Assembly (NCBI RefSeq): GCF_964204645.1 | Contig: NC_134028.1 | Location: forward strand, 806,001-870,000 | DNA: 64,000 bases | From: Tubulanus polymorphus | Taxonomy: Eukaryota > Nemertea > Palaeonemertea > Tubulaniformes > Tubulanidae | Direction: 5' to 3' | Shown here: positions 261 through 48,700 of the stretch, piece by piece | Numbering within the stretch: the stretch's first letter is position 1 | Layout of the letters: each line of letters opens with the position of its first letter | Notes under the pieces: model-generated | What the model was told of the DNA's origin: nothing | The model's input: only the letters and a program-made list of their open reading frames with translations | Databases searched by the model: none | Program-made: the position numbers and the translations under genes

Positions 261-3200
261 TGGCTTGAGTCAGAGTAGACAGCTTTAAACGCGGTTACAA
301 TAAGACCGAGACCTGATTTATCCAGATACGGCGAAGTCCACATCGTTTCATTCAGAATTCCTGAACTATCGACTAAATATTCAAAATAGTTTGACATCTG
401 TTTAATGACGTCATTATCATGTTTAGTGACCGGTATAAATAAACCACCTCCGGAACAAGCCAGTTCACTGAGTAGAGCAATGTTTTGAGCATTAGTCAGG
501 AAGGTGAATACTTTTATCTGAAACACATAATAAAGATGCATGATTAGATGAGTGCAATGTGTGAAACAGTAGCCGTATAGTTTATTAGATACTTACATCA
601 TCTTTAATCACTCGATGATTTTCATGAACAAGTTTTAGAAGTTGTTTATATCTATAACGACAAACTTCACCCGGGACGTATCTACGTCTGCTGTGACCGT
701 CGTAACGATGGTAACCTAGACAATGACAACAATACCACAATAAAACGTACGGGTATGTCACTAAAGCAGTCAATAGCACTGGAATTTGTGACGGTGTATA
801 GTTTTTAAGTAGCTCATTTAGAGAACTTGGTAGCCCAGCCCGGTAGTCTGACCCGGCAGCCCAGCCCGGTAGTCTGACCCGGCAGCCCAGCCCAGACTCC
901 TGGCCCTAAGCGGTACCATACCTGGATCACATCTCTGTAAACCATCAGAATCATCACCATCTCCAACAAATAATATCAACATCAACTGTTGCTGCTGACA
1001 ACCAGATTTCTGTTGTTTGTGTAACAGTTTATAAGCCATTTTAAACGCAGCCCTTGAGTAAAAATAAAGAAAAACATTCAATTAATTTCTGTACAACACG
1101 TACTCATGTCCCTACGGAAGTTAACTTAACCATCCGGACCCATAGTCCCACAGTTGTGAGTTAAGATTTGACTCAGAGTTAACTCTAACTCATCTATCAA
1201 CTGGCTTACTTAAACCGACTTTATATCAACTGACCCCTGATGGAGTGTACACGGTACTCACAGATGATCAGATCCACCCTTAGCTTCAATTGAATTAATT
1301 CTTGAAAGTAAATCTCTCCGATGACTCGACGTCGCGGACAGCATTCGATGACCTTGACAACTGAGCACTTCCGGGTCATGGTCAACTTTTCCCCCACTCG
1401 TCTTGTAATAAAATGACCTTGACACGATGACGCTGACTAAATCTGACTTCGTTAAAGTTTCAATGAGCGCACTGGCAATTTTCTTCATACGAGAAAGTCT
1501 GAAATTAATCATATAACAATTCAACTCCGTGGTGGTAGACAGGGATCCACTGTGGTGGTTGATACTATATTCATTCACTATCAATTGTGACAAGTGATAG
1601 ATCCAGTCCTGTGATACCGGTAGATAGACCCAGTCCAGTTGATTCAGTCTAGTCCAGTGTTAAGGGTAGCGGTAGTCTGATCAGACAACCTTTTATGGGC
1701 TATTATAACCCAATAATATCAGACAGGTTAACAGTTGTTGTTTTAGGGACAACAGCTTTAGTTCCTGGTGATCAAGTCCCCTTCTAATAGTGAGGGGATG
1801 ATACCTAGTAAGATAAGGGATAATAATAGATGGTTTTAGATACTAGTTGCGCATTGCTTACCCATTGTTATATGACATAGAAAAACTTCCATCTAAAATG
1901 ATGACTAAATTCTTTGGTCCCGAAGTGGCGGACACATACCACGGTCTTGTACGGGGGTCGAAATCTTCTTTAAAACCGATGAAATTATTCTGCCATTCTC
2001 TACCGGGGTATTGTCTACTAACACCAGTTACTGAACCAAAATACTGCCATCTAACAACAAGAATCAGAGATCAGCTGATAAGTTACAAAAGACAAGTTAC
2101 AAAAGTTCAGTTGAAATACTATTTATTGGAATGGGGATATTTGTGTTCAGTGCTTGAATCATCAGTATCTGCTCTTCTGATTACATCATTTTATGGAAAA
2201 ATTGAAAGCTTAATTATTTTTTCTGGAATCAAATTATGGTAATAAGGAGAGGTATGGAAGAGGCTGTAGTGGATGAGGTGATAAAGTGGATGCAGTGCAG
2301 ACTGCTCACTTGACTGAGAATAAATCAATTCAATTACTTTATGAGCATAGAATGGATCAATACATTTACATAATCAATAACTACTGATGATTGAATCAAT
2401 AAATAGATGTTTATACAGTGAGATATAGTATCTAACTGACTGATTGTGAGTGTGCAGTGTATCAATCAGCTTCATACACTATATAGGCCGAGCAGTTGCA
2501 GTGTGTGTGGAGGGAGGGGGGTATCTGTTAAAATCCTATAAGTGCCTACATTTCTGGTCGCCTAAGATGTGATTCATCATTAGGAAAAAAGGCAACAACA
2601 ATCAGTTGATTTGGGTACTCAAAATCAATATTTTTCTATAAATCTATCGTTAGTGAAATACTATCTTATTGTTCTGAGTTTAAGTGTAAGTTTGTTTGAT
2701 CATGTTATTGTCTTCACTATGATACAATATAAGGTTGATAGGGTATGATTTGACAGTCACCTCGCCCGACTGGTGACTAATTAGCTGTAGCCTATTGACT
2801 GAGTAACTGTAGTCACCACACCTGAGTGGTCACCAAGGCACACAGGTCAACCCTAAGCAGACAAACTTCCCGAGTCAGTCACCAGAGCTCAGTGGTCTAG
2901 GGGTTTGGACAGTGGACTGGCAAGTAAGGGACCCAGGTTCAAATCCCAGAGGGGCTGAAGGGTTAGCATTAGCGATGACCTAGGGTTAGGGTTAGCAATG
3001 ACCTGGGGTTATTTTGACTGATCCTTTGGTCCAGATGACACCAGTTTGGCATAAAATTTTGAATTTTTTGATTTTGTAAATTCCTAGCAATGGACTGCTG
3101 ATATTTGACCGAGATAGCACATGGACTCTTCAACTGGTTCAAAGTGTATTTATGATCTGATCCCAGTGATCGAGAGACGTCTGTCTGTATCCATCCAATC

Positions 3201-5942
3201 CAATAGCAGACCAGAAAATATAATCTCACAGGAAAAACAGAATATTGATATCTTACACAAACACGACGAGATTTATTCATTTATCTCAATACAACGTAGA
3301 ATATCAGAGAGCCTAGTATAGTGTACATACATAGAAACACACTCTACACACTTAGAACTCGGATTTTCAATAAGTCTGTTTATGATTAATGGTAGCGTTT
3401 AAATGAGTTATAAATGAACTCTTAAATGTGCAGAGATAAAAACCATTTCATCAACACTCAGTCAAACAGAGTTATCAATATCAATTATAGTTCTTATATT
3501 AATTATAGTTATAATATTTAATGTATTTAATAAAAGATGATATTATTATAGTAAAAACATTAGCCGCAGTAAACTGTACCGACTACAGGTACCGGTATAT
3601 CAGACTCACATGAGAGTAATGGACTATGTTATAGCAGGTACTGGTATATCAGACTCACATGAGAGTTATGGACTACTGGTATATCTAACACAAAACCCTC
3701 ACAAAAACATTCTATGATTTATAATGAATTAAATGCAAAAAGCTAAAACTCCTCAAATGCTGTAACTCAAAATCTCCATCAGTCACTCATTCAACAGCTA
3801 AAAGCTTTCTATAGCTGTTTTTATAAGTAGGGGTCATTCATTTATTACGTACGCATTAGGGGAGGGGGAGGGGGTCAGTGCAATTGCGTACTGTAATGCT
3901 TAATGTATATGAAAAAATGTCCGATTTTGCGTACAGAGGGGGAGGGGAGTTGAAAAATTCAAATTTTATGCACACGTAACAAATGAATGATCCCGTAATC
4001 GATATAAATGCTGTAAGCCACAACAAAACAATCAGATGTTAGTTGAATGTAAGTTATGATCTGTGAATGAATTCAATGAGTTTTAAACTCACTGTAACAG
4101 TGTTAAGCCGATGGATTCAATGAGTTTTAAGCTCACCTGATGTCGTTGTTTATTTGTATATTTGATTGGAAAGTTTTATCTAATTTTGACGTCCAGTTGA
4201 CAGTGTTTATCACATAAGGGTCCGAGCGACTAACATCATCAGGAATCTTAACAGAGCTTGAATTCCACATAACAGGCCAACGAAACTTACTGAAAATACA
4301 ACATGTCAATGAAAAATAACTAATCATTTAATAAAGAGTTGTTCAAAATAAAGTTACAGTTTAACTTGTGTTGAATTATCATTTCAATAAGTTGTCACAC
4401 TGACACTGAAGGTTATTTTGAGTCTCGATCTGTATTTCTAATTCAATTTACTTAATGTAAGTCATTTTGAGGTCCTCACCTCAATGACTGTCACAACTAT
4501 ACGACTTAAGCACTTGTTTGATTGTGGTACAAGCCCCCAGCCTGTAAGGAGTAATGTATTACTCATTACAGGCTGGGACTCAAAATGGGTACTCCAGACC
4601 AGCTGGGTTCTTAGAGGTCACTTACTCGTTTGATTGAAGCCATCCTCGAGGAAATGCTAAAGAATCATCGGCATCAATGAATACATGTTGAGGTAAATTT
4701 TTTAATGACGATTGTTGATGATCAGTAAGTTCTGTAGAATGTATACGTTTTACTGCTTCACTCAATTCATCTACAGCTTTTAACTGACCCTTAAAAAAAT
4801 TCTCTGAAACAAACAACAAACAAACAGTGATTAGAATACAATCGATTAAACAAGTTTTATCGAATTCAATTTAGTCTTAAATTACATATAGATATATAGC
4901 ATGGATAGAGTTAAAAGACTTAAAATCAAGTCTTGAAATAACTTCTTTAGAATAAGCTACAACTATCAGATATTCTAAGATACGAACCTAGTTTAGTTTG
5001 AATATCGTGAATGACTCGTGAAGCGTTTTTAAAACGACTGAAATATTTCGCCTCAGAATAAACCGACTGAATCTGATCGTCGAACATCGTCGATTCAGAG
5101 ACAGACGTCAGGTCACGTGATATCTCTTTTGACCAATCAGAGACGTTTATACTCGACGCATGAACCGGTGAAAATAGAGACAGTAAAATGATCACAAAGA
5201 ATACGAGCTCCGCGACACTTCCTCGTACGCCCCATCCTCGTCCACTGCTGCTTGATCGACCATTTTCATTATTGCGTTTCGTGAATTGTTTTAAAGTCAT
5301 TGTTGGCGTTGTATCCACGGAGATGAGAGCGATACAGATTGATATAACGATGATTTCGATGGATAAGTTGTACCCGCTACGAGCCGAACCGTTATAAACA
5401 TCCTCCATCTGATGATTAAAACATCTCTTATCATTACCGACCTCGAAACGTCGACTCTCGCAGAATTTACGTCCGTTGTCGTAGAGATCGCGGATTACCG
5501 AACCTTTCAAGATGGCCGACTTACAGACGTTATAGAACGCGTCGCAGAACGGTTCACAGACCGTCAGACGCTCGCGACGATAGAATTTATTCTGATCCGG
5601 AGCGCAGATATAACACATGAGATAGTTTAAATACCTCAGACACGCGGGAGACGCACCTTGTAGAGGTTTCACTTTCACAAACGTCGAGTCTATTTCACGT
5701 TGTAAACAGCAGCTATTCGCGCGGAACCACGTACAGTTTTTTAACTCCGGTTGAGGAGTCGGAGCTCGATTGTTAAAGAATGAACACCACTGGTCGGATT
5801 TAGATTTTTTGGCGGCTGAAGCCGGAATAACGGAATATTGAGTGATTTTGTCTCCTCTCATCGGAGTCAAACTGATGAGGATTGCTATGAGTAATACAGG
5901 ACACCAGGATAACATCACTACAGACCCGGACCAACCCATCAT
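261..5942 (-). CDS. CACNA2D-like: Voltage-gated calcium channel alpha2/delta subunit with N-terminal folate-receptor-like domain (partial, 3' end off window)
   Basis: Exons on the minus strand: 5942-4988, 4803-4626, 4289-4137, 2050-1862, 1498-1262, 1052-922, 778-597, 517-261. Phases chain without a stop for about 760 codons, then the gene leaves the left edge. Alpha2/delta subunits are extracellular, membrane-anchored partners that traffic and modulate CaV channels. From about residue 262 the protein follows the family: a VSDW...SRDL start, NWTSKLD in the VWA_N region, DPRTRPWY before the VWA domain, a DGSFS MIDAS motif (DxSxS), and KVFTFL followed by a TSPYLD segment. The first exon adds a signal peptide, a Cys-rich folate-receptor-like domain (about 52-175), a hydrophobic segment (about 192-209), a basic loop and a second hydrophobic segment (about 242-260). 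The start is the first ATG of an ATGATG pair after a CT-rich 5' leader. CACHD1 is a related alternative, but the NWTSKLD and PRTRPWY motifs fit alpha2/delta better. Confidence 0.85.
829..895. repeat. 26-bp tandem repeat in alpha2/delta intron
   Basis: About 2.5 copies of a GC-rich unit containing CCCAGCCCGGTAGTCTGACC lie in the intron between the exons ending at 922 and starting at 778. The copies are nearly identical, so the array is recent. Confidence 0.8.
2755..2965 (+). mobile_element. tRNA-derived SINE, copy 1
   Basis: A tRNA-like part runs from about 2885 to 2962, with an A-box-like segment (AGTGGTCTAGGGG) and a B-box (GGTTCAAATCC). It is preceded by a stretch rich in GTCACCA motifs. 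The same order (GTCACCA stretch, then A-box, then B-box) recurs in reverse at 51900-52120, which makes this an interspersed family and not a functional tRNA. It lies in the large intron between alpha2/delta exons 3 and 4. Confidence 0.65.
3575..3690. repeat. Tandem duplication, about 65-70 bp unit
   Basis: Two and a partial third copy of a unit containing GGTATATCAGACTCACATGA, followed by GAGAGT and a nearby GGACTA, occur in an alpha2/delta intron. Confidence 0.7.
3828..3998. mobile_element. MITE-like element with terminal inverted repeats
   Basis: The left end reads GGGGTCATTCATTTATTACG and the right end is nearly its reverse complement (from GTAACAAATGAATGATCCC), with about 170 bp between the outer ends. 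The interior has G-rich runs and no ORF. This is the layout of a non-autonomous DNA transposon. I did not resolve the target-site duplication. Confidence 0.6.
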
Positions 5943-6500
5943 CTCTCTCTCTCTCTTCTCTCTCTCTCTCTACGTCTCTCACTAATCTCTTCTTATCCGT
6001 AACTTAGAATATTCCTACTACCTGTAAAAACATAAAAAACTCTAGAGACTACAGTCCGCGCCTAAGTGTAAAAACCCTTTATTTCTTTATCTTGACCTGT
6101 TATAGTGTTTCTATTGCTTATCACTAGTTTTATTTTGGGATTGGCAATAACATTAGTCATAATCACATAAACAATGAACACTAAATACCGGGTTGGGCTA
6201 GGGTTGTTAATAAACAAGTGTGATGAGGCTCCCCAACCCACAGTCACCAATCAATAAATAATAATGCTGGATGGAATGGATGATAAGGTGTCAGGTGATG
6301 CTGGCTCTGGCTGCTGCTGCTGCTGGGGCCGGGGGTTTTATTTGGTCTCCTTACCTAAATTGTCTTGCGCTGAAAACCTGTCCATCATTTAGATATCAGT
6401 CTCAACCCGTGTAGAATATCGGATACATTCAAATAAATACTGGAGAATTCTCTGTATCATCAGCTGTCAAAATCACAATACACTGACCGACGACTTCATC
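5943..6500. other. Alpha2/delta 5' leader and upstream region, no gene seen
   Basis: A CT-rich run at 5941-5985 (GA on the minus strand) is probably the 5' leader of the alpha2/delta transcript. The rest, to the TMEM220 promoter, contains a GCTGCTGCTGCTG microsatellite near 6311 and no credible coding sequence. Confidence 0.5.
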
Positions 6501-6577
6501 ACTTCCGGGTTTGCGTAATACGCATGCGCAATACGCGCCGGAAGTAAACAGACAGCGAGGGGAACCCGGAAGTAAAA
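6500..6577 (+). promoter_or_regulatory. ETS/NRF1-type promoter of TMEM220
   Basis: Three ETS cores (ACTTCCGGG near 6502, CCGGAAGT near 6538 and near 6566) surround an NRF1-like palindrome (CGCATGCGCAA near 6521). They sit within about 75 bp directly upstream of the proposed TMEM220 start. Such clusters are typical of TATA-less housekeeping promoters. The region is also 0.6 kb upstream of the divergent alpha2/delta gene, so it could serve both. Confidence 0.55.
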
Positions 6578-8606
6578 ATGACAGGTCGGTTAACAGTGTG
6601 ATTATCAGCAGGGGTTTTATTGAAACGGAGTCGAGGAATGAGTTAGCGAACACAGTAGTGTGTACAGCTAGCTTTATCAGTCAGTGATACAGGGGGAGGA
6701 GAGGGGAGGGAGGGGGAGAGGGGGCTAGCAGTGTCAGTGACGACAAGTCAGTTTGACAATTCAATTCAATTATCAATCTAGCAAAAAGTAAAGGCTTGAA
6801 GGAGGCTATGGTGTAGGGATGTTGTCAGGTTTATACCCACCAATCAGCAGCCAGTTTACCCTCACACAGGCTCAGACTGTCCCACTGATGGGTGGCAAGT
6901 TTAAATCCACTGTCACGTTATCGGGTTATTTTGGGGGCCAACCGGCAGCATGAAATTGAAGGGTTAATATGAATTATAATTGCAGATACCGCGAGAACGA
7001 CTCCGAGTCAGGAATATTCATATTACCCATTATCAACATCGGAGAATGATCCACATTCCGGTTCCACCGTTCCACGTGTGGATGACAGCAAATGGAAATG
7101 GATTTGGAGAGCTACTAATTTATTGATGTCGATATTTTTTGTACTGGCGGCTTACGTTCAGATCAACGATCCTGATCCATATATCTGGATTCCTGTCTAT
7201 CTGATACCGGCTTTATTTACATTATCAATTACAATCACACCTAAAATAACAGGTACGGCTATAACAGAGAAACATTATCATTGTTGTGAGAATTCCATCA
7301 ATAATTGAGGGAATTATTATCTCATGTGGGATTTCTCTTGTATATTCATGTTGACTGAAATTCATATTTAGCCTAACAGATAGTCTATTGACAGGAAACC
7401 AGGGTCCTCACAGATCAGGGAAAATTGGGAAATTCGGATTCTTTTCATCAAACTTGTTCTTACTGGTGACAGAAATAGCTCCCTCTCTGAGGATATCTCG
7501 TAATCTAATCAGGGAATTTCTGATCCCTGCTATACCATACATTCATACACCTTCAAGTACAGTAAAACAGGACATTATTTGATTATTTTGTAGATAATAA
7601 AGTTTGGAAGGTTGCTATAATAATTCATATAGCTATCAGTATTGCGGGAGCGATGTATTTATTAGCTGTAGTCATCGAAATGTTGAGTTTAAATCTATCG
7701 AATCCACTTCAACACGAAGAAGGAAGGTAAACTAATTATATTCAACATTTTTGCACAAATGATTTTAGATGATTTTAAATGTTTGATTATGATGCAGATT
7801 TTGAGCCTGGTTGGCTGTATGTTAGTTTCTTAACTATGCAGAGTTTTGAATTGTTTCTTCATCTTATTTCAGAGAATTATCAGGACTTGTGATTGTAATT
7901 ATCTGGCTGACGCTCTGTCGATTTTCTCCACTTGGAAGGTAACTTTTCAGGCACTGTTTCATAAACATAGATAATAAGTAGCTCTGCCACTTTGAACCCA
8001 ATTCTGAAGTTGTGAGTTAAGATTTGACTCATGTTTTAAACTCTATAATCAAACTTACTTCAAAGACATTTATGGGTCCTGATATACAATGTTTAATGAA
8101 GATACTTTGGTTAGATTTACCAGAGAGCCATGCATGGTTCTATGATTGTATTTGTTTTGTATTTCAGTAATGAACCAGGTCATGGTTCTATGATTGTATT
8201 TGTTTTGTATTTCAGTAATGAACCAGGTCATGGTTTTATGATTGTATTTGTTTTGTATTTCAGTAATGAACCAGGTCATGGTTCCATGATTGTATTTGTT
8301 TTGTATTTCAGTAATGAACCAGCTCGTGGTTCTATGATTGTATTTGTTTTGTATTTCAGTAATGAACCAGGTCGTGGTTCTATGATTGTATTTGTTTTGT
8401 ATTTCAGTAATGAACCAGGTCATGGTTCCATGATTGTATTTGTTTTGTATTTCAGTAATGAACCAGGTCGTGGTTCTATGAATGCGTTGATTTTACTCAC
8501 CGGCACGCTCGGTACTATCCCGCTGATTTTCTGGTCGCTATGTTTTATCAGTGATTGGCATAAGAGAATTGGACATTGTAAAGACATGTTTCCTGATTGG
8601 AAATGA
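6578..8606 (+). CDS. TMEM220: Transmembrane protein 220 homologue
   Basis: Exons 6578-6584, 6986-7252, 7594-7726, 7873-7938 and 8456-8606 give 207 codons plus stop. TMEM220 is a small multi-pass membrane protein of unclear molecular function. Recognisable blocks are the first membrane segment with YVQINDPDP, the following VYLIPALFTL, the RELSGLVIVIIWLTLC segment and the last helix PLIFWSLCF. An N-terminal extension of about 35 residues before DDSKWKW is longer than in vertebrates. The first coding exon would be only 7 nt (ATGACAG, then a GTCGGT donor), chosen because it restores a frame-compatible Met right behind the promoter; it is the least certain exon. The last exon's acceptor lies at the end of a 48-bp repeat in which each unit carries its own in-frame acceptor. 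Confidence 0.85.
8133..8468 (+). repeat. Seven tandem 48-bp units, each carrying a splice acceptor and exon start
   Basis: Each unit contains TTTTGTATTTCAG followed by TAATGAACCAGG. These are the polypyrimidine-AG acceptor and the first codons (S-N-E-P-G) of the last TMEM220 exon. Acceptors lie at 8168 + 48n, the last giving the exon start at 8456. As 48 is divisible by three and no unit contains a stop in this frame, every acceptor is frame-compatible. Confidence 0.95.
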
Positions 8607-15517: not shown

Positions 15518-31000
<15,483 letters not shown>

Positions 31001-37369: not shown

Positions 37370-40300
37370 TTAATCGGCCATTTTAACCGATTTCGCATTT
37401 TCCACGTCGAACATCGGATCCCGTTTGAGATATTTGCGTCCGGTGAGAAAATAAAACACGTTGAGAATCTCTTCACCGCTGGTTAAACCGCTGACTGGAG
37501 CATGCGAGAAAAACGCCCACGTCTCTCCTTTAGAGATCGTGTTTAACTGCCATTTTAATACGTATAAACTCATAGCGAGAGTAATAACCGTCAGATAAAC
37601 ACAACCCATAATCCAACCTTCGAGAGAGAAAACTGACATCAGTAGATTATCGGGATGTTTAATAGTAGCGAACGCGTAAACCGAACCGAGAAATAAAAAC
37701 CCAGCGATTATCGTAACAATCGTGTAATAGAGGAACGCGCAGTGGTTCCTGTCACCGATACAACGCATAAAAAACAAACAATGATGATCGAGATTGTTCA
37801 CACATTTACGACAAAGACGACAATGTTTCGTTAGAACTGGTTGAATTATCTGAAACAAAACATTCATCGAAGTAAAACTGATGAGAAGATTTTGACGTTT
37901 TGACAATGCTATGAACAAAGTCAACTTGTCCAGGGAACAGGGAAATATATCTGCGTTGAAAATACCTCAGTCAAAACTTCTAAATCGTCTATTAATCAGG
38001 GTTATTGATATCTGCAGATATCAGTTGAATCAGACAGTAATTTATACCATACAGGTTTGTGTCGTTATACGTACCTCGCATTCAGAACAGAATCTTTCTG
38101 AAGGAACGAGTCCAATAGCGATATCTCTAACTGTAAACTCACCACTAACGTGATCTTTTACCGCAGATCGAGTCTCAAAACCTTCAAATACAAACACATC
38201 ATTATCAGGCTTTCTCTTTAGTTATACAAGCAATTCCGCTTCTAATGGATTCCTTCCACTGATATTTAAACCTTTATACCGTTAACTGTTTTACATTTTG
38301 TCCCAATTTCAAGTAGGAACAAATAGTGATTGCATAATGATGAAACGAATTAATACCAGTGACTGAATTCAGTCTGCAGCTTCTCTAGGATCAGTCTCAC
38401 AGTTGTTGATTTAGACTATTTTAAGTTAACTACCAGTAGTTCATTCCCAATGTTTTAACTTCAAGAGTCAAATCCTGAATTCTATACCGGTAACTGTTAT
38501 TTTACCTGGATCTTGAGTAGCGATTTTCAAACACAAATATAGATAGATGGGAGCAGTGATTATTACAGGGATCACTATCGGATATAGAAACTGTTTATAA
38601 ATTACTGAATCATTCGTTAAGGTCATCATTCATTTATACCGCGACAAATCATCGTAATAGTTTCTAGTTTGAAAGGATACTCGGCAAAATATGAATCAGA
38701 AAACAGAGCAGTAACTGAAGCTGTCCTCCAAAATATCCGCCCAGCTGTGAGGGACACGCCCATCTGAAATAATACAATAATATCTGTAAACAATTCCAGA
38801 AAATGTCTGATTGAGAAGAAGAAAGTATAGAAATAACGTACTGAGACATATGAGTCATTCGATGACCGTCCGTCCAAATCCGATAAATCAAACTTATCAC
38901 AACTAATAACATGACTAAACCTTGACTTTCAGAGAGAACGTACTGTAAACCAGTAACAACGCATCCAAATATAACAAACGACATCAGTAGCTTCCAGTAG
39001 TATAGAAATACAGGTCCTCTCGGGTACGAGTTCCTGTCTGATTTCAGTAACGGTTCAATCTTCTGTATCAGTGCTGTATTACTGAAATACATAATATAAC
39101 ATAAACAGTTCATCACTCAATCGAACTGACTTTCTCAACTGATTCCTTAACAACGGATTCTGATGCAGATTATTTGCAGGCGATGTTAGATTTTACCTTG
39201 GAGTGTTATTAGCTCGAGTATAATCTATCGGAGTCATTCCTTCGTTGTTTTTAATATGAATCGCTTTATTTCCGGCGACTTCCAACAATCTCCATACGTT
39301 CATTGAATTACCGTTTTTACAAGCGTAATGCATCGCGGTATTACCGAATTCATCTTGATTCATCGGGTCACAACGCTGCTGCCATCAAAATACAGTATAT
39401 TAACAACTTTCACTTTCTCAAAATAACACATTTTAAACTGTCTGAACTGACCTGATTTTTCAGTATATATTTCACAGCCTCTAGATGTCCGTGTGAACAC
39501 AGTACGTGGAGAGGAGTCATCCCGTTTATATCTGCCACTTTTAAACTCAAATTACAAACTGTCGATAGAAAATGTAGCGTCAACCTGAAATAGAAATTAA
39601 TCAAATAAGTTTCTAATCATATTCCTTACTCATATTCCTTACTCCCCTATCCACCCGAGCAGCCGGGGATCTCCCCCCAGCTGCCGGGGGATCTCCCTCC
39701 AAGCAGCCGGGGATTTCTCCCCAGCGGTCAGGGATCTCCCCCAGCAGCCGGGGATGTCTACTCCAGCAGCCAGGGATCTCTCCCCCAGCAGCCGGGGATC
39801 TCCCCCCAGCAGCCGGGGATCTCTCCCCCAGCAGCCGGGGATCTCTCCCCAGCGGTCAGGGATCTCCCCCAGCAGCCGGGGATGTCTACTCCAGCAGCCA
39901 GGGATCTCTCCCCCAGCAGCCAGGGATCTCCCCCCAGCAGCCGGGGATCTCTCCCCCAGCAGCCGGGGATCTCTCCCCAGCGGTTGAGGGATGAGTTCTG
40001 ATACTTACACACTACCCCCGACACACGCATGCAGCACAGCTCCACGGTTGACTTTATCCACTGAGTTTAGATCAGCTCCACGCTCCAGTAACATGTGAAT
40101 AAAACCTATATTTCCATTTCTACAAGCGAACATTAACGGAGTCTCGAGGAAATCATTCACACAGTTTACATCGGCGTTCAGGTGCAGCAGCATCTGCAGA
40201 ATCTTAGCATCTGTTCGTAGAGTCGCTTTATGTAGAGCAGTTAAACCATGCCAACCTACAATATAAACCCATACTACTGCTTACTAGATGAGTAGGGGAG

Positions 40301-42661: not shown

Positions 42662-42692
42662 TTAGTGTCTGTTTTGATTCTGAACATTTCGA

Positions 42693-42753
<61 letters not shown>

Positions 42754-45700
42754 GATGAGTATTAGCGGTTGGATTGTTGTCTCTTGCTTTCAAATCGATA
42801 GATGAGAACGTGTAGAGAATGGGGTTAATAGCCGAGTTGATGGGTAAGATAACTACAGCTACTACAGCTGCCCAGGTCGGGGCTATGAATATCCCACAAA
42901 CAGCCAATATACCCAGCACTATCACCGGTACCCAACATACTATTTGCGTCAGAAATATGGGCATCAACCTACGCGCCAGAAATAGTTCGGTCTCGTTGCA
43001 TCTTCCCGATGTCTGACGGGACTTCTTCACCGTGTTGTAAATGATGAGATAAGCGATGATGATTCCGACAGTGCAAACAGAGTTAAATACTACATATATA
43101 CCGAAGGAGTAACCCCAAGCCTTTACATCAATCGAGCGCAGGTTCACTGGTAAACACACTCCTGCCTGGCCGTAGAAATTAGTGAAATATCTCACCGGTA
43201 GGAGGGGTAATATGGCTATCATGAAACATAACGTCCAAACACCGGTTGATAACGCCAGCGACAACCGAATCGGAAACCACTCGCCAACTTTTAAGAAACA
43301 GAGTTTAATCGCTCGTTCAAGCGAAATCAATAACATGAATATTAATGAGCCTTCCGACGCGACCGTTATGAAAAAACCTGCTAATTTGCATAACGCCCCC
43401 TGGCGCCATTCTTCGGAATAGATCATATAGACGCCTTTATAGAAGAGATCGGCTGCAGCGATCAATATCAGATAAACACCCATCAATAAATCACCGATAG
43501 CTAAATTTATGGTGAAAATTATCGAAGCGCTTTTCTTTTTGTCGACAAGTCGCCAGACGATTACAAACGTGTTACCGACGAACGCAATAATGCCGACAAT
43601 CCAAACCATGACTCTGAGGAATCCACTGGCGATCAGGTCGTCACATGACGAAAATTCATCAGCTTCCGGTAAACAAGATTTAGTCTGAGGAGCTAGACAA
43701 CAGAATTTGAACGAATCGCTGACCAATTCAATCAGAGATTCGATTTTATTCAAACTATCGATTTCAACGTCAACGATCCAGTTTTGGCGGAGGTCGAGAC
43801 TCTCAAGATGAGGGAGACCAATAAACGTCAGTGCACTTAATGATTCCAGTTTATTTCTGCTGATATTTATAGAGGTGAGTTTGACCAGACCGCTGAATGC
43901 TTCATCGCCTATTGTACTGATTTCCAACTGTTCCAGATGTAGATTTTCAATCGAGACCAAACCTCGGAACGCGTTAGATGAAATAACAGCGAGTGGATTC
44001 CCGTCTAGGGAGAGATGTCGTAGATTAGTGAGTCCGTAGAACGTGCCTTCATACAGAGCATCGATCGCGTTAAAACTCACGTCCAGATAGAATAGATTAT
44101 GTAGAGCTGAAAACACCGATTTGAATAAGTTTTGGACGCGATTGAATGAAATATCTAACTTCCCTAAAAATCGATACTCGCTGAATAGATCTGTATTATT
44201 TGTAACATTGAGACTGATGTTTGAGAAGGAAAGGGTGCGAATTTCCGGATACAAATAACTAACGGTTTTACACGTGACGCTCAAACCAACACACTCGCAG
44301 CTGATTGGACATTCGCCCATATCGCAGAATATTTCATCGTCTCTCATTGGACAGTTCACCGTGACGTCACAAACCCGCGTATCAGTAACGCAGGAGTCCG
44401 AGCCTCTACATCTCAAACGACCTTGACACTTGTGCCGCTTACCGCAGTCGCGTTCGTCGTAGCCTGCGACGCAATCCCAAACACCGTTACAGACCTTATA
44501 GTAGGGAATACAATACGACGCGGGACATTTAAACATCGCCGGAGGACATTCGAAATCATCGCAATGCAGTAGATTCTCCATTCTATTACATACAGATTTA
44601 TTCAAAGCTCGCATTTCAAAAATGCAGCTCATTTCACGCGGGAAACATTGAGGCGAGGTGGACGAGCATCTTATATCAGTGGTCGCATTCAGACAGGTGC
44701 CGGAGTTATTGATAGAATTAGATTCATCTTCACCAGTCACACCGGGACAATCTACGATACTGTCATTCACCAGATCTGAGTGGATACAATCACCGTTAAA
44801 ACACTGGAAACCTTTACAACGGTTGAACAGCCCGCATCCGCGCTCATCAGAACCATCAAAACAATCGACTAAACCATCACAGAACTTAGTCTCACTGATA
44901 CACTGCTCGTTCGTACACCGGAACTCGTCCGGGTCGCAGTCCGGATACTTACAACTGTATTCGTCACTTCCGTCAGCGCAGTCGGTCACGTGATCACAGT
45001 AGGATGAGATAGAGATGCATTGCGTACCGGAATCACAGTTAAACTGATTCCAACCACAAGTGCAGTTTAATTCATCCTCACCGGACGGACAATCAGCCAC
45101 CGAATCACAAACTCGTATATTCAAAACACAAGAACCGTCGTCACATTCGAACTGATTTTGGGAATCGCATTTTAGTATCAGGGAGTCCACGTGGTCTTCG
45201 CAAAGGACGCCGGTTATTTTGGGCATGGATTCATCGCCGCAAGCGCCGCGATAAACAATTCCCGTAGCGGCTCCTTGTGATAGTACAATACATCCACCGT
45301 TAGAATCATTGCTGAAAGCTACAACATTGCCATCAACTTTCAACGTTAAGAATAGATTGACCAGTTGTGAAATATCGCTGATGATGGATATATTCGCCAC
45401 GGAGCCACCGAGACCTCGACAGACATTAGAGAAATTACGATCAGGATTCGTGATAGAGAAAACATTGAGACAACGAGAAACACTGAAAATCCAGCCGGGT
45501 TTACAAGCGAATATATCAGTCGAGAGGGAGGAGTTATCAGTGATAGTTTGATTGACGTCGGTATTTGGAACGACATCGAGTTTACAAAATAAAGCAGTTT
45601 TGATTTTATATTCGCACGGAAACATGGCCCAGTTGGCTTTACCGTACGGGGTAGACAACTGCATAATCGAACAAACAGTGGAATCATCACGAACTGGTTG

Positions 45701-48700
45701 ATACCTCTTCACAGGCACGAAACTCGTCAGTCCTGGGTGAAGGGTCTCGTTAAATGTTGGCTGATACCATTCAGTGTAAGACAGTGGACTTCCATCAGAC
45801 CAGATAAAACGCTTCAACTATAAATATACAAACACATTGAACTATACAATGGTTTCTTTATGATCAGGAGGCGGGCGGCTCCGGGGTAGCCTATACCATT
45901 TAAATCAATGAAAATGAACAGAATTTAACTGAGAGTTGTTGATAAATCTTACTGGAAACTGGGTTGTTTGGGGCAACTCCGTGAAATGGTCTAAAGTTTC
46001 TAACACGTATCATGTCTTGTATCACTTTGTTTCACGCGTATTCTATGAAGAGACACCTCAGCTGATACTGACCTGTTTCTCATATCTAAGACCGATGTAT
46101 ATAAGTGGTATATGTAGCCGGTATAGTTGGTTGATCCAGTGTCGGGTGAGTAGATATTTGAATCGTTCAGATTGAGAACGGGATGTTATACTCATTAGTT
46201 CACCGCGACTGTCGTTATTACGACAAAGTTCCATCGCTGAAGTCCACGAAATGTTGCCAGTTGTTTCTATGAATGCGATGCATTCGTTTCGCTCAAACCG
46301 CTGATAACCGTCTGGGCAAATGTCACTTTTTACATCTTCGTTATCTTTCTTGCGATGTTTTTCGTAATTGATAATGACGTCTTGTTCGCGGTGAAAATTA
46401 TTCAATCTGATTTCGAGGGTTGAATGAGCGAACGGTATCGTGTGCAACACAGCGCCCTCTTTCGCCTTTCCGCAAAACCTTCGGCGATGAATGACGTCAT
46501 CAACTACGTATTCACTGAGTTGCACGAACGAGTCCTCACACTTTCCCAATACGAATTTAACGATGTTGAATTTGTAGTAGAATTCCGAGTAGGAATCCCA
46601 GATTTCCATAAACGACATCGAGAAAATGTAGTAGCATGTTTCGGGTGACTGGCCATACGTTCTGGATATGATGCCACAGTTTTCAGTATCTATGATGAAG
46701 CCTGCCCAACCACCCGGACTACTCCCGCATTTCTACAATAGAAATTTAAGAATTTTCAAAATGTCAGATTAAAGAGTTGCAAGATGGCGCACGATCGATA
46801 CATACTGGTTTTATTCGTAGTGAATATATTTCGATGAAATTTGAACTGGTATTTTATAGGCTCCCAAATCAAAATATCATAAAACAAGTCATTGAACAGA
46901 CAAACGAATTGACTTTCTCACTCCCAGTGTATGGTATAGATTTAACTGTTAATTTGTATTGAAAAAATTTTATTAGGATTCAACTGACATATTGAAGAAA
47001 TTGAGCGCTACCACTAGCGCACCTGGTGGATCCACACTCGCCACAGTAGCATCTTTTACTTACCATTTCAAGTGAGCATTTATTACGTAGTTCAAATTCC
47101 CATTGGCCATATTTGGTAAGACAGGATTTCTGATCGAGAGTCGCGTAGGATAATTCAGTAAGGTTGCCACCAGGGGTCGCTGGGCTGCTGCATCGTGTAC
47201 TATTATGCGGCCACAGTTCGGAACAATCCAAGCGTCTTAACGTCCCGTGGGAACTATACTGGCATTCACCTAAACTATTGCATAAACAAGCTGTAAAACT
47301 CGTGTAGGATGAGCCGCAATGGAGAGAACTTCGAACCGCTGTTAGTTCTAACCCTGATTTATTGTCGAACGCCAGTTTAATTAGAGATTGATTTCTGGGT
47401 GGTGGATGGGTAGTGAGGTGTATGTTCTGTATTCTATAACAGCTTTGTCCCGCCTCCATATTTACAATGACGTCTTGTTCAGTTTCCGATGTAGTTAGGA
47501 ATATACCTTTACAAGGAACTGTTTTGTGTTTTATTTCAAAACTACTTTTGTATCGGTAAGAATAGATAAAAATGATCACGGAGTTATAAGATGACGTCAT
47601 TTTCAGTTGAGGCAAACCTTCGTGCGCATTAGCGGCACAAAATGGACCTAAAGCTGTCGCGCTGGAGTTCACGTCTGCACCGTCGATGACGTAGGCGCCG
47701 ATCTGTTCGCATGGTTTACTAAGGGTCGATTCCGGTTGAAAACTCAAAGCTACATCTACAAAATAACTGGGATGTTTTGCGTGTATTGCGATAGCGCAGA
47801 GGGTAAAGTCGTTCTTCTCACAATTACCGATAGACCCGAGTCCATCATAGAATCCACATGAACACGAAAAGGGCTTCTGATTTGTGACAGAAAATGATCC
47901 GTGTTGTTTCCTCCAACCTATCGACACAATTATTCCGGTATCGGACACGTTTCCGATCCGATTCAGCGGGACTCTGAACGCGACCAAAACCCGAAATCCT
48001 TCAGTTTTAGATGTACCATTCAGTGATTGGAGAAGCATATTTTTTGTAGCAAACAAAGACGGCGAAATTTCAACATCAAACTCGCTGAAGTGTAAACTAG
48101 TCTGGGTCGGGTCTACTTCAATAGATGTGCGCCATGATAGTTCGAAATTCTCTCTCACATCTGCGTGCAGGATGAATCCATACATGGCATGGGCGTCAGT
48201 TATTATATCCGGCATCAGATTCGCTGTGAAATCAAAATGATCAGAGACATGCGTGTCTACAGAACGGATTGTCTGACGAACTGTCGTAAACATCCACTTG
48301 TTACTGGGGATATCAGTTATCAGTATAGAGATATCAACACCGTGTTCACTACACAGCGGAAAAAAGGTAAATTCTAACGAAATATAATCTGCCACGACAC
48401 TCCACGGCTTTCTGATACCAGTAAACTGTCCGATTTCTGTACCATTAGCCGCAGTTAGTACTAGTACATTCATATTGACAGACATTTCTCTGGGTATTGG
48501 ACACAGTAGAAAACGTAGAAATGTGATATTCAACGAGTTCAACGATTCGAAAGGGCGTAGCTCAGCTTTATAGACGAGCACGTCTTTTGTTATGAGATGA
48601 TGGATATCGATATAATGCGGTCCAACTTCGATATCTCTGTGAATTTCTTCGTGAAATATCTGAAATGTGTTTCGCACGAACTCGACGAGTATAATAAATC

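Follow-up and report, generated by a model that had tools for sequence, protein, structure and literature searches.

A folate-receptor-like domain joined in frame to an alpha2/delta-like protein in Tubulanus polymorphus: a candidate tandem precursor with an inner signal-peptide-like segment

Introduction

How does one uninterrupted reading frame come to encode the beginnings of two surface proteins, and what would become of the translated product? The question is raised by a gene of Tubulanus polymorphus in the stretch of DNA analyzed here, hereafter the window (64,000 nucleotides; contig NC_134028.1, positions 806,001 to 870,000). A first-pass annotation, made from the sequence of the window, had described a single exon with a signal peptide, a receptor-like domain, two hydrophobic segments and a basic loop running into an alpha2/delta subunit. 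It had assumed a mollusc setting, which was mistaken, as the organism is a nemertean, more precisely a palaeonemertean. No account of a folate-receptor/alpha2/delta fusion was found in the literature searched, mostly at abstract level.

A single exon spans both proteins

All features of the gene lie on the minus strand of the window. A frame scan of the window revealed a stop-to-stop frame of 340 codons at 5969..4947; the earliest ATG in this frame is at 5942. The first coding exon (4988..5942, 955 nt) is a single open frame spanning both proteins. It ends at a canonical GT donor after 4988 (G/GTTCGT), which joins in phase to canonical AG acceptors before 4803, 4289, 2050 and 1498. Exon 2 (4626..4803) was placed by splice phase and canonical sites and is present in the predicted protein P0001. 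Exon 3 (4137..4289), coding VWA_N, and exon 4 (1862..2050), coding the end of VWA_N and the start of VWA with the MIDAS motif DGSFS, were placed by Pfam matches and splice sites, and exon 5 (1262..1498), coding VWA, by its translation and splice sites. A later exon (261..517), whose translation is found in P0001, codes the end of VWA and the start of the first Cache region; between exon 5 and this later exon the gene model has a gap. The gene runs on past the window start, with further matches on the same contig (C4) down to 801293.

The 330 queried residues of the window exon were 100% identical to P0001 (LOC141904238, T. polymorphus), a protein of 1419 aa with the database name uncharacterized protein. 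Because the frame, the donor and acceptor phase and the Pfam matches agree, we consider the coordinates and the layout to be right. Frame, Pfam and hydropathy were likewise in agreement with the one-exon layout of the first-pass annotation. The stretch at about 6965..7253 (+), arranged head-to-head with the fusion gene, looks like a TMEM220 exon; the two genes may have a common promoter in about 5970-6570.

The receptor-like domain

The predicted N-terminal signal peptide covers residues 1-30 (5853..5942), with a hydrophobic core at about 8-26 by hydropathy and a helix at 9-25 in the AlphaFold model. It precedes a Cys-rich folate-receptor-like domain at residues 53-175 (5418..5786). The Pfam search proposed in the first-pass annotation matched Folate_rec (PF03024) to residues 56-161 with an E value of 6.4e-17 and 62.4 bits, above the gathering score of 29.8, while profile positions 131-172, the C-terminal part, were unmatched in the Tubulanus domain. 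A profile search of PDB sequences gave riboflavin-binding protein as the sole match at E<=0.001. Identity of the Tubulanus domain to the fold group of folate receptor, JUNO, riboflavin-binding protein, the NPC1 N-terminal domain and HHIP-N was low (17-25%). Because of this low identity and the unmatched profile end, folate binding by the predicted domain is not to be assumed.

The alpha2/delta-like half

The mature alpha2/delta-like start corresponds to residues 263-318 and the first base of codon 319 (4988..5156). Its placement rested on the alignment with the alpha2/delta-1 chain 8if3 and on a match at 263-318 to an HMM in which the Tubulanus row was one of seven seeds, so that its own match should be read accordingly. 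P0001 aligned from residue 260 with 8if3 from residue 26 (E 3e-36), in accord with the earlier claim that alpha2/delta begins right past the motif SPVHA, and from residue 412 with CACHD1 (8s7c; E 5e-35). Pfam matches on P0001 were VWA_N (2e-25), VWA_2 (5e-8) and MCP-like_PDC_1 (2e-11), with dCache_1 below the cut-off. The domain order VWA_N-VWA-Cache is thus present in P0001, as in the CACNA2D family. The MIDAS motif DxSxS was found in four of five full-length fused proteins (P0001, DGSFS; P0002, DVSSS; P0004, DGSTS; P0005, DASSS), and the fifth, Helobdella P0006, has DTSFT in its place. VGCC_alpha2 (PF08473) was matched in Owenia P0005 (3e-11) and had no match at E<=0.001 in P0001, P0002, P0004 or P0006; the unfused Dreissena alpha2/delta P0137 is also without a match at that threshold. 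The NCBIfam search returned nothing useful. We regard "alpha2/delta-like" as the safest name for the second half.

Fused relatives in three phyla

A search with residues 1-330 gave seven matches. Full-length fused predicted proteins were those of T. polymorphus (P0001), Lingula anatina (P0002), Lineus longissimus (P0004), Owenia fusiformis (P0005) and Helobdella robusta (P0006), and P0003 was a fused fragment of 542 aa. The five full-length proteins, which are predicted gene models, are 1379-1443 aa long; in each, PF03024 precedes domains of the alpha2/delta type, with the matches to VWA and Cache in P0006 below the Pfam cut-offs. Identity to the Tubulanus fused protein was 37-41% for Lingula, Lineus and Owenia and 28% for Helobdella. 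These full-length proteins and the 8if3 alignment bear out the proposal that a receptor-like ectodomain stands ahead of a whole alpha2/delta-like frame, and in predicted proteins this layout is present in three phyla: Nemertea, Brachiopoda and Annelida.

With the domain alone as query, 301 matches were obtained, 120 of which were listed. Seven fused sequences were used to build an HMM of the alpha2/delta N-terminus, which was run on the 127 domain-bearing proteins of both searches. Among these listed matches, 30 of the 127 folate-receptor-like proteins carried an in-frame alpha2/delta N-terminus; two further proteins judged by eye to be fused, P0046 and P0090, were missed by the HMM and are outside the 30. 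Short exon-like frames of 285-542 aa made up 25 of the 30 listed fused sequences. By eye, 24 of these 25 reach the position of the Tubulanus exon end, stopping 1-62 residues past the HMM match, which is what a shared intron at this point in their genomes would produce; the remaining one, P0020, ends before it. If the short frames are taken as genomic, the block from the first signal peptide to the alpha2/delta start is probably one exon in the relatives too.

In Glandiceps talaboti, the source of the seventh match to residues 1-330, a related receptor-like domain stands ahead of an acyl-CoA-synthetase-type protein (P0007). This join may be a gene merge or another fusion.

Stand-alone relatives and the GPI-like tail

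Among the domain-search matches listed, 30 named proteins were not fused: 24 from molluscs, 4 from echinoderms and 2 from annelids. The first-pass annotation had proposed looking for the same fusion in other molluscs; all 24 named molluscs among the matches listed were unfused. The 28 named mollusc and echinoderm stand-alone proteins among the matches listed are about 185-252 aa long (e.g. P0034 of Pomacea and P0099 of Patiria), and P0034 shared 63% identity with the window domain over 143 residues. Most of them resemble the fused proteins in having a hydrophobic tail at the place of the first inner hydrophobic segment (H1), but all differ in stopping soon, without the loop, the second inner segment (H2) or alpha2/delta.

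Among the matches listed, 87 stand-alone proteins measure 175-259 aa, and 81 of them have such a tail. In these listed proteins the tail starts a median of 19 residues beyond the last conserved Cys, and a median of 5 residues remain after it (no more than 12 in 62 of the 81), a layout inferred from sequence to be that of a GPI signal. In the 30 listed fused sequences, H1 also starts a median of 19 residues beyond the last conserved Cys (range, 16-55). Because the spacing is the same, the simplest reading is that H1 is the old GPI-type tail and H2 the alpha2/delta signal peptide. The pattern FD...D.S occurs just before H1 or the tail in 16 of 30 fused and 26 of 87 stand-alone proteins among the matches listed.

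The annelid proteins Lamellibrachia P0024 (partial) and Paralvinella P0026 appear unfused among the matches listed, and may be broken gene models. The long frames P0008, P0040 and P0047, also among the matches listed, have H1 and no clear H2. These five speak against a simple fusion rule for annelids.

Two stand-alone proteins, P0066 of Plakobranchus ocellatus (227 aa) and P0083 of Elysia marginata (206 aa), have the public name alpha-2/delta-3-like and consist of the receptor-like part alone; the names were probably taken over from a fused relative. In the Tubulanus genome, no stand-alone receptor-like copy was found among the best candidates scored with the window exon and Pomacea P0034 as queries. 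The only other Tubulanus match among these candidates, obtained by both queries, was C7:17178925-17179131 (L002), which was rejected as a stand-alone orthologue since it is a different paralogue and apparently contains introns. This is a second Tubulanus gene of the folate-receptor type (L002 1507..1758, minus strand).

Conserved segments around a diverged loop

Within residues 1-330, H1 and H2 are the only strongly hydrophobic stretches beyond the N-terminal one. H1 covers residues 195-209 (5316..5360) by hydropathy, with a helix at 193-209 in the AlphaFold model, and H2, the inner signal-peptide-like segment, covers residues 243-257 (5172..5216), with a helix at 243-257. Between them lies a basic loop of net charge +4 (residues 210-242; 5217..5315), predicted to be cytosolic, which holds Met215 (codon 5300..5298) and was modeled with low confidence (pLDDT <50 at 215-218 and 220-241). 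Model confidence of H1, loop and H2 as blocks was low to moderate (pLDDT 45-72). H2 is followed by SPVHA (5157..5171), where the (-3,-1) small-residue motif predicts a signal-peptidase site after Ala262. The alignment with 8if3 puts H2 at the position expected of an alpha2/delta signal peptide, as had been noticed in the first-pass annotation.

The same arrangement was seen in the fused sequences among the matches listed. Hydropathy over 15 residues exceeded 1.6 for H1 in all 30 and for H2 in 28 (1.21 and 1.24 in the remaining two), and the net charge of the loop was positive in 29 and zero in one, as expected of a cytosolic loop. The loop sequence itself has diverged: in 28 of the 30 listed fused sequences, its median pairwise identity was 0.23, compared with 0.22 for shuffled loops, whereas the median was 0.68 for the receptor core and 0.32 for the alpha2/delta start. 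In 21 cluster representatives among the matches listed, the loops held no stop over 1162 codons, a count that is biased because only open frames can score as fused. What is retained through this divergence is the reading frame, both hydrophobic segments and, in most sequences, the cleavage motif.

A proposed tandem precursor

Because the frame, H1, H2 and mostly the motif were kept while the loop diverged, we infer a tandem precursor that is cut after H2. We think it rather probable that a former GPI-type receptor gene was fused ahead of an alpha2/delta-like gene, giving a precursor with a predicted signal-peptidase cut at this point. The N-terminal signal peptide would take the receptor domain into the ER, and H1, the former GPI-type tail, would halt transfer. 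The basic loop would remain cytosolic until H2 resumed transfer, and a signal-peptidase cut past SPVHA would release the mature alpha2/delta N-terminus. The receptor domain would stay anchored through H1, loop and H2, so that the end products would be two surface proteins out of one precursor.

The fate of H2 is where this proposal parts from the first-pass annotation, which had the old signal peptide kept as a membrane segment. The segment is indeed kept, but it looks cleavable. Of the 30 fused sequences listed, 23 have a small-x-Ala motif closing H2 and 10 have one closing H1; the motif is a short (-3,-1) consensus pattern, and its tested form is absent after H2 in 7 of 30. By this difference, H2 reads as a cleavable signal peptide and not as a lasting membrane segment. 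If H2 were left uncut, the product would be a single polytopic protein in which a two-pass hairpin links the receptor domain to alpha2/delta, both of them extracellular. Signal-anchor segments with long N-terminal extensions can evade signal peptidase, and the seven sequences without the tested motif fit such an outcome; the excess of the motif after H2, despite a loop whose similarity is at shuffled level, makes it unlikely in our view. A second alternative is that alpha2/delta is made alone from an internal promoter or a loop Met (Met215), with the receptor frame as an upstream leader or a separate isoform. Met215 lies, as first described, 28 residues ahead of H2 with an A at -3, and 23 of the 30 listed fused sequences have a Met in the loop. 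The internal-start claim is weakened by the 7 of 30 loops without Met and by three of the 30 (P0002 of Lingula, P0035 and P0065) having none anywhere between the receptor domain and H2. Internal initiation is therefore disfavored as a general mechanism, and an in-frame join is not expected to last if the halves are always translated apart, so that we regard two starts as quite improbable. A promoter scan of the loop region used a bacterial consensus and was uninformative for this animal gene.

A more trivial explanation is that gene prediction wrongly merged two adjoining genes. The relatives are predicted models and the receptor protein stands alone in named molluscs and echinoderms among the matches listed, which would suit a merge. 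The Tubulanus exon, however, has no stop codon between the halves, predicted proteins from three phyla show the same join, and 25 short frames among the matches listed share it, 24 of them reaching the same exon end. We give a merge hardly any credence. Chance read-through or annotation merge was rejected on the recurrence of the join in three phyla and in 30 of the 127 proteins among the matches listed.

Evolution of the join

The closest unfused alpha2/delta proteins found were from a hemichordate, an echinoderm, a cnidarian and Dreissena, and four more; by sequence they are not clear orthologues of the fused alpha2/delta half. Dreissena P0137, considered as an unfused orthologue for the question of mollusc linkage, was rejected because Tubulanus C2:22766821-22774874 matches it better. 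In a 17-row tree with long branches and partial alpha2/delta-1 and CACHD1 rows, the fused rows lay on one side of a branch with weak support (48/87). A single origin of the fused proteins fits this tree, though weakly (52% of 200 bootstrap replicates), and no claim was rested on it because support was weak and branches were long. Only the distribution of the join suggests an origin common to Annelida, Nemertea and Brachiopoda that leaves molluscs out, and two named annelids among the matches listed appear unfused.

Other alpha2/delta-like sequences were seen in the Tubulanus genome. The region G000:C2:22766821-22788437 has a first gene-like part that matches Dreissena P0137 with 44-81% identity per stretch and a second that matches by two stretches only; it is perhaps two adjoining alpha2/delta-like genes. 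At G000:C11:2297203-2297808 (-), an alpha2/delta-like match lies within a stop-free frame of 1114 codons, possibly an intronless alpha2/delta copy.

Other features of the window

An uninterrupted frame of 1051 codons at 42662..45817 (-) codes LDLR-A-like and leucine-rich repeats and then a seven-helix receptor, presumably of the snail GRL101/relaxin-receptor type. A frame at 37370..37966 (-) was seen by eye to have the DHHC-type palmitoyltransferase motif LDHHCLF. Long purine/pyrimidine-strand repeats occupy 19098..21095 and give spurious open frames on either strand.

Discussion

If the precursor is cut as predicted, this is a cellular gene that gives two membrane-attached extracellular proteins from one frame via an inner signal peptide, two surface proteins that in other animals would come from separate genes. 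The two halves are likely made one to one and in the same place because they share a single precursor, which is what one would expect of cooperating partners. Fusion of two proteins in some species often goes with joint action of their counterparts elsewhere. The fusion points to a partner for alpha2/delta-type proteins, which can be tested where the two are separate, as in snail and sea urchin. Direct contact between the receptor-like and alpha2/delta-like halves is a guess.

CACHD1, an alpha2/delta relative, is reported to bind the Frizzled CRD (PMC7615972). A bolder and more doubtful idea is that this is a cellular animal polyprotein whose halves are obligate partners, that the GPI protein of molluscs and echinoderms is an unrecognized alpha2/delta partner, with docking to a CRD-related fold as in CACHD1-Frizzled, and that the join is a rare genomic mark grouping Annelida, Nemertea and Brachiopoda apart from molluscs. 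Even without this idea, a join seen in three phyla and in none of the 24 named molluscs among the matches listed offers a discrete character in a disputed region of the animal tree.

The Frizzled CRD fold and the folate-receptor-like domain are distantly related in structure. Compared with CACNA2D1 structures (8if3, 5gjv), the alpha2/delta-like half shares VWA_N, VWA with DxSxS, a Cache-type domain and a short hydrophobic C-terminus. Its N-terminus begins directly past a signal peptide, as in alpha2/delta subunits, but the fused proteins carry the receptor-like domain and an extra hydrophobic segment in front, in the same frame. CACHD1 (8s7c) matches the VWA-Cache part nearly equally well, but it possesses a transmembrane domain with a cytoplasmic tail (PMC7615972). 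The fused proteins differ in ending in a short hydrophobic stretch and in keeping DxSxS in four of five; by eye, a CACHD1-type cytoplasmic tail was absent from all five full-length fused proteins, which end in or just past the last hydrophobic stretch.

In viral glycoprotein polyproteins, signal peptidase cuts at inner signal sequences. Bunyavirus reviews (PMC7926653, PMC4974537) are relevant here. The processing proposed here would follow the same logic, with the difference that the Tubulanus case is an animal gene.
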